Part shown: positions 1 to 95 of the stretch, in pieces
Layout of the letters: the number at the start of each line of letters is the position of its first letter
Position numbering within the stretch: position 1 is the first letter of the stretch
The notes under the pieces: model-generated
What the model was told of the DNA's origin: nothing
What the model saw: only the letters and a program-made list of their open reading frames with translations
The model's database searches: none
Position numbers and translations under genes: made by a program
Source of the DNA: Lachnospiraceae bacterium
Lineage (GTDB): Bacteria > Bacillota > Clostridia > Lachnospirales > Lachnospiraceae
Direction: 5' to 3'
DNA: 64,000 bases
Assembly (NCBI GenBank): GCA_014804675.1
Contig: JAAUZH010000035.1
Span: 1 to 64,000 of the forward strand

Positions 1-95
1 GTCTGTCTGTCTGTCTGTCTGTCTGTCTGTCTGTCTGTCTGTCTGTCTGTCTGTCTGTCTGTCTGTCTGTCTGTCTGTCTGTCTGTCTGTCTGTC
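1..95. repeat. (GTCT)n tetranucleotide tract, about 24 copies
   Basis: An uninterrupted GTCT microsatellite fills the first 95 bases and continues past the window edge. On the minus strand it reads GACA and lies in the open hsdS frame, directly after the C-terminal conserved region. A 4-nt unit encodes the same DRQT tetrapeptide in every frame and never creates a stop, so adding or losing one unit shifts only the frame that follows it. This is the usual design of a slipped-strand phase-variation tract. Confidence 0.97.

Follow-up and report, generated by a model that had tools for sequence, protein, structure and literature searches.

The window analysed here, a stretch of 64,000 nucleotides from a Lachnospiraceae bacterium, begins at base 1 of its contig (C35), and this base lies inside a tandem repeat. 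Positions 1-95 read as GTCT on the plus strand and as GACA on the minus strand, the coding strand of a type I specificity gene (hsdS), and comprise 23.75 perfect units (Tandem Repeats Finder: period 4, 23.8 copies, 100% match) that encode DRQT in all three frames. The length and perfection of this 95-nt array exclude a chance origin, and because C35 breaks off inside the repeat, the figure of about 24 copies is a lower bound. The hsdS gene up to the tract (96-1312, minus strand) contains two recognition domains (TRDs) and two conserved regions, and its frame runs on into the tract, giving 437 amino acids to the contig end (2-1312) that run out in DRQTDRQT. Pfam Methylase_S matches the protein in two stretches (E=2.9e-37), the better of which covers TRD2 (residues 210-382; 167-685, minus strand). 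The spacer between TRD1 and TRD2, conserved region 1, carries 4.2 copies of an in-frame 12-bp repeat encoding TAEL (746-796, minus strand), and the number of TAEL repeats differs among relatives as well. These observations bear out the sequence-only reading, which had described some 24 GACA copies behind an HsdS with both TRDs complete and every frame through the tract open.

Upstream of hsdS on the same strand lie hsdM (1934-3496; 520 amino acids; Pfam N6_Mtase, E=1.8e-114, and HsdM_N) and, between the two genes, an ORF of 213 amino acids (1290-1931) that has no Pfam family. A search of five further genomes of the genus gave no match to this ORF, and it is not needed for the switch proposed below. 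Together with an EcoR124-like hsdR on a second contig (C26), the hsdM and the two-domain hsdS make up the parts of a type I restriction-modification (R-M) system, and the tract has sequence features of a phase-variable locus, being a pure tandem repeat within a reading frame and having a unit length not divisible by three.

Besides the end of C35, the genome has a single GACA tract end, C26:1-88. Immediately 3' of the C26 tract one frame is open for 187 codons while the other two end directly (CAG TGA; AGT GAT TAA). The open frame is a half-hsdS with a single Methylase_S domain (Pfam, E=3e-30), i.e. a third TRD with its conserved region, and is followed by a DUF4238 gene and then by the EcoR124-type hsdR (C26:1560-4787; Pfam HSDR_N, helicase and EcoR124_C domains), which is tied to the window's hsdS by synteny. 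The DUF4238 profile is split into N- and C-terminal parts over two overlapping frames (L003:651-1022 and L003:977-1573, on C26), indicating either a frameshifted gene or a sequence error. A 590-bp repeat beyond hsdM on C35 (3622-4211, minus strand) is 97% identical to one beyond hsdR on C26 (C26:5833-6422; G000, L003). If C35 and C26 are connected through the tract, the two copies bracket the R-M locus in direct orientation, which fits a single island divided over two contigs, and the repeat is a possible island boundary. Each copy carries a UPF0175 gene, one on each side of the R-M locus. We infer from these sequences that C35 and C26 meet at the tract.

The joint in other Clostridia

We searched named genomes with a pattern in which the tract was fixed and the preceding Leu codon was left free. 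Of 59 matching stretches, four (L152, L178, L184 and L197) were left out as not hsdS, leaving 55 loci in 54 assemblies (L155 and L159 belong to one). These assemblies come chiefly from Lachnospiraceae and Oscillospiraceae; one is a Defluviitaleaceae bin, and others are named to order or class only. Culturable relatives with the locus include Blautia caecimuris DSM 29492, Clostridium sp. ASF356 and Blautia sp. An81. Two tract-bearing matches (L036/L099 and L098) were excluded as probable eukaryotic contamination, a judgement made by sequence character only. The order hsdM, hsdS, repeat, half-hsdS, hsdR thus recurs in 54 other Clostridia assemblies from gut and rumen: wherever 2 kb or more of upstream sequence is present (38 loci), hsdM precedes, and wherever 1.5 kb or more of downstream sequence is present (35 loci), hsdR follows. 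Tract lengths range from 24 to 235 nt, the longest being fully assembled in a complete chromosome (L158). In two loci (L187 and L192) the GACA tract instead separates TRD1 from TRD2, a 1+1 layout.

Among the 38 fully assembled tracts with sequence beyond them, the third cassette is in frame with hsdS in nine (fused, or ON) and out of frame in 29 (OFF), being shifted by one nucleotide in 19 and by two in ten. This count is taken across species and is not clearly unlike equal use of the three phases, so that we claim no favoured phase. Six loci (L151, L156, L163, L164, L179 and L196) contain complete fused ORFs of 617-650 amino acids with three TRDs, and the fused L196 protein, scanned on the identical copy in G163, has three Methylase_S stretches in Pfam; the remaining in-frame loci (L148, L166 and L180) are cut upstream, and their frame relation alone is readable. 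Tract lengths among relatives differ in 4-nt steps. L154 and L190, for example, encode identical third-cassette proteins (dS 0.03) behind tracts of 58 vs 142 nt, although comparisons of repeat length are between species, with one genome per species. On these sequences, repeat number would decide the product: one frame would read the third TRD and the other two would stop. The sequence-only reading had proposed that slippage selects the downstream frame, and had named three outcomes: a C-terminal extension, a fusion with another hsdS-like segment, or coupling to a gene downstream. The second of these is supported. C26 does not have stop codons in every frame behind the tract, which would have spoken against the proposal, and the hsdS-like segment found there is fused in some relatives and out of frame in others.

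The GACA repeat is not the only one at this position. Protein searches for the third cassette, made without selection for repeats, also recovered (ACGAGCA)4 in G238, (GA)n in G214 and G522, (GCAA)n in G740 and C9 in G488, as well as two genomes (G639 and G679) with only about three GACA units. The (GA)n joint of G522 is in frame, whereas the frame in G740 is uncertain because its tract contains a run of N. Altogether five unrelated repeats, with units of 1, 2, 4 or 7 nt and none a multiple of three, occur at the joint. That five differing repeats should all be able to shift the frame at one joint is the strongest argument that selection acts on frame switching. In G488 (L220) both hsdS joints carry poly-C, C8 after TRD1 (1125-1132) and C9 after TRD2 (1670-1678), making two independent frame switches in one S locus possible. 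In G066 the tract is degenerate and contains TAG codons that lock the fusion off.

The third cassette is under purifying selection, as judged by dN/dS values of 0.06-0.24 among informative pairs of related cassettes, some of which are out of frame in each of the two assemblies compared; few changes underlie the highest of these values, and synonymous sites are saturated in several pairs. Its conserved region is strongly kept. TRD3 comes from the diverse pool of TRDs that also supplies positions 1 and 2; in seven of 22 TRD3 sequences the best match is to one of these positions in another locus. In 26 of 35 loci there is no ATG, GTG or TTG between the tract and the QYVFG motif, and with a start codon mostly absent before it, the third cassette is likely translated by read-through from hsdS. 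An AlphaFold2 model of the L196 protein contains three TRD-helix modules, with a lower-confidence helix running from the DRQT stretch into TRD3, and its closest solved structures are HsdS subunits, EcoR124I among them; at a pTM of 0.46 the packing of the three modules is not firmly given by the model.

Promoter-like sequence ahead of GACA tracts

Conserved region 2 closes with Leu-Thr codons that form a -35-like hexamer, TTGACA (122-127, minus strand), and 17 nt after it, 3 nt before the tract, lies a candidate, weak -10-like hexamer, CACAAT (99-104, minus strand). The Leu codon is TTG, which forms TTGAC, at all 54 hsdS junctions, vs five of 38 matching sites in conserved region 1 and seven of 36 in conserved region 3. 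In the -10-like hexamer, position 2 is A and position 6 is T in 55 of 56 cases, and position 1 is T in none; a coding constraint in common may account for part of this conservation. We also scored 31 distinct GACA tracts, which came from searches without promoter selection and are mostly outside hsdS, and 29 of them are preceded by a sigma70-like promoter (TTGACA-N16/18-TATAAT-like, score of at least 9 of 12); this score is reached in 27 of 635 null windows and, downstream, in 0-1 of 21 windows. A promoter and a frame switch could be present side by side.

Outside hsdS, GACA tracts begin 1-4 nt behind a sigma70-like promoter (for example L040-L046, L052-L063, L084, L086, L093-L095 and L106), and in many of them the next ORF starts about 80-125 nt past the tract and seems to encode a large secreted or surface protein, with a signal-peptide-like start. 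By their sequence these tracts look like a clade-wide class of repeat-bearing promoter-leaders. In several (L061-L063, L079, L081-L083 and L088) CTGTC(C) and a T-rich run directly follow the tract; the CTGTC(C) can pair with the last GACAG, which predicts a terminator-like leader hairpin. One genome (G010; L044, L045) has three near-identical copies of promoter, tract and surface gene, two of them inverted about 0.7 kb apart, with tracts of 63, 59 and 63 nt, i.e. exactly one unit apart within a single genome. Other tracts (L049, L072, L076, L077 and L107) lie only a few codons into a frame whose apparent start, ATG (or TTG), has a ribosome-binding site, and the open frame behind them is membrane acyltransferase-like and has no start of its own. 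A known RNA element at the tract was also considered and rejected, Rfam having matched only tRNAs in the loci of 18 relatives.

Frame selection as the probable explanation, and its rivals

We consider it highly probable that the GACA tract is a phase-variation (contingency) joint in a type I R-M locus with an EcoR124-type hsdR, and that it selects by frame whether a third TRD is read. Slippage would shift the frame behind a complete two-TRD HsdS. In one frame of three, HsdS would continue through a DRQT linker into the third TRD and its conserved region, giving a three-TRD subunit of about 620-650 amino acids; in the other two it would end just past the tract, leaving a normal two-TRD subunit that bears a DRQT tail and no product from the third cassette. 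Such switching presumably takes place within one strain, and the third TRD would be expected to alter which DNA is methylated and cut. The simplest route would be for conserved region 2, besides pairing with region 1 (TRD1+TRD2), to pair with region 3 too (TRD2+TRD3). A more specific proposal is that ON yields a working three-TRD subunit in which region 2 pairs with region 1 or region 3, such that a motif for methylation and restriction is added or replaced by one slippage and the OFF phases keep a working two-TRD enzyme, and that loci with repeats at both joints (G488) could make one-, two- or three-TRD subunits. This proposal is tentative, and we judge it a close call that falls slightly on the doubtful side.

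Against the frame-switch view it can be said that in-frame alleles are a minority (nine of 38), that a three-TRD subunit is not known to be active, and that the conserved TTGAC codon and the promoter-like geometry suggest a second, transcriptional role. The minority status of fused alleles might mean that the fused form is inactive and the tract an on-off control of restriction and methylation, the third domain only blocking assembly; our search of open-access papers found no three-TRD subunit. We regard this as unlikely, because a TRD3 taken from the same diverse pool, a strongly kept region 3 and low dN/dS go beyond the needs of a mere blocker. The promoter-like geometry, in turn, might mean that the tract is mainly transcriptional, an internal promoter (TTGACA-N17-CACAAT) starting transcripts in the tract and repeat number tuning expression of the half-S and hsdR. 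Both the promoter-like sequences ahead of 29 of 31 GACA tracts (vs 27 of 635 null windows) and the invariant TTG codon (54 of 54, vs 5 of 38 and 7 of 36) are what such a role would lead one to expect. However, the hsdS -10 is weak and never has T at position 1, the heptamer of G238 and the poly-C of G488 occupy the joint behind a poor or absent -10, and the third cassette lacks a consistent start codon of its own. Given these other repeats without a good -10, frame selection explains more than a promoter or leader as the sole function at hsdS, and we find the mainly transcriptional explanation decidedly unlikely.

The want of a start codon also bears on reinitiation, by which the third cassette would be translated apart as a half-subunit wherever the HsdS stop overlaps an NTG codon, with the tract setting the coupling. 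The stop TGA does overlap GTG in C26 (GTGA) and ATG in G238, and half-subunits of the NgoAV system can be active (PMC9577141). Elsewhere, however, the codon at this place is often CTG, CTA, GCA, GAA or ATA, the 26 of 35 loci noted above have no ATG, GTG or TTG before QYVFG, and six complete loci have fused ORFs. Separate translation of the half-S was rejected for lack of a consistent start codon, and reinitiation as a whole seems to us very unlikely. Almost certainly wrong is the view that the third cassette is decaying and the tract in front of it a neutral relic or an artefact of assembly. Both C35 and C26 do end in the tract, and the TAG codons of G066 show one fusion that is locked off, but many genomes, among them the complete chromosome of L158, contain the joint fully assembled, a result on which a contig-end artefact was rejected, and purifying selection acts on third cassettes that are intact.

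Comparison with known systems

Our search of open-access papers found no report of a three-TRD HsdS, of phase-variable hsdS in Lachnospiraceae or of phasevarion biology in commensal Clostridia. An earlier REBASE survey of type I repeat switches may list some of these genes. Short-read assemblies break at such tracts, here as the ends of two contigs, so that a switch of this kind is easily missed. Should the fused form be active, a single slippage would be enough for a common group of gut and rumen Clostridia to change its R-M specificity, with the enzyme still working in the other phases, and in a population a few cells could differ in the sequences at which they mark and cut DNA. Phasevarion biology would then extend to commensal Clostridia, and the locus would offer a test of whether a type I specificity subunit can bear three recognition domains and of which pair acts.

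EcoR124I and EcoR124II carry TAEL repeats in the central conserved region that are in frame and set spacer length. The window shares with them both the EcoR124-type hsdR C-terminus and the 12-bp TAEL repeats between TRD1 and TRD2, but those repeats keep the frame, whereas the GACA tract shifts it after the second conserved region. The phase-variable hsdM of Haemophilus influenzae and type III mod genes are switched ON and OFF by repeats (PMC7394358), and there, as here, a simple repeat whose unit length is not divisible by three lies in a methyltransferase operon; the enzyme goes off in those systems, while here a normal two-TRD enzyme is expected in two of three phases. Inverting hsdS loci contain several hsdS genes that recombine between inverted repeats (PMC7394358) and likewise keep spare TRDs beside an expressed hsdS, but in the present locus the extra TRD, placed downstream with its orientation unchanged, would be reached by a frame shift.

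The closest likeness is to NgoAV of Neisseria gonorrhoeae, in which a poly-G tract lies between hsdS1 and hsdS2 (PMC9577141) and the fused and unfused forms are reported to differ in specificity (PMC9577141, PMC7394358). In both systems a frame-shifting repeat within hsdS, with a further hsdS segment downstream of it, fuses or separates parts of the specificity subunit, and hsdM precedes and hsdR follows. The statement in the sequence-only reading that the locus differs from familiar switches can therefore be kept in part: a two-TRD subunit gains a third domain here, but a frame-shifting tract inside hsdS is already known from NgoAV. NgoAV joins two half-subunits (1+1) through a G tract, whereas the present loci are 2+1 and usually carry GACA, and a tract between TRDs, which leaves a one-TRD half when unfused, is found in L187 and L192 only and not in the window. 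NgoAV is thus the nearest described case, and the locus is a relative of it that adds a third domain to a complete subunit.
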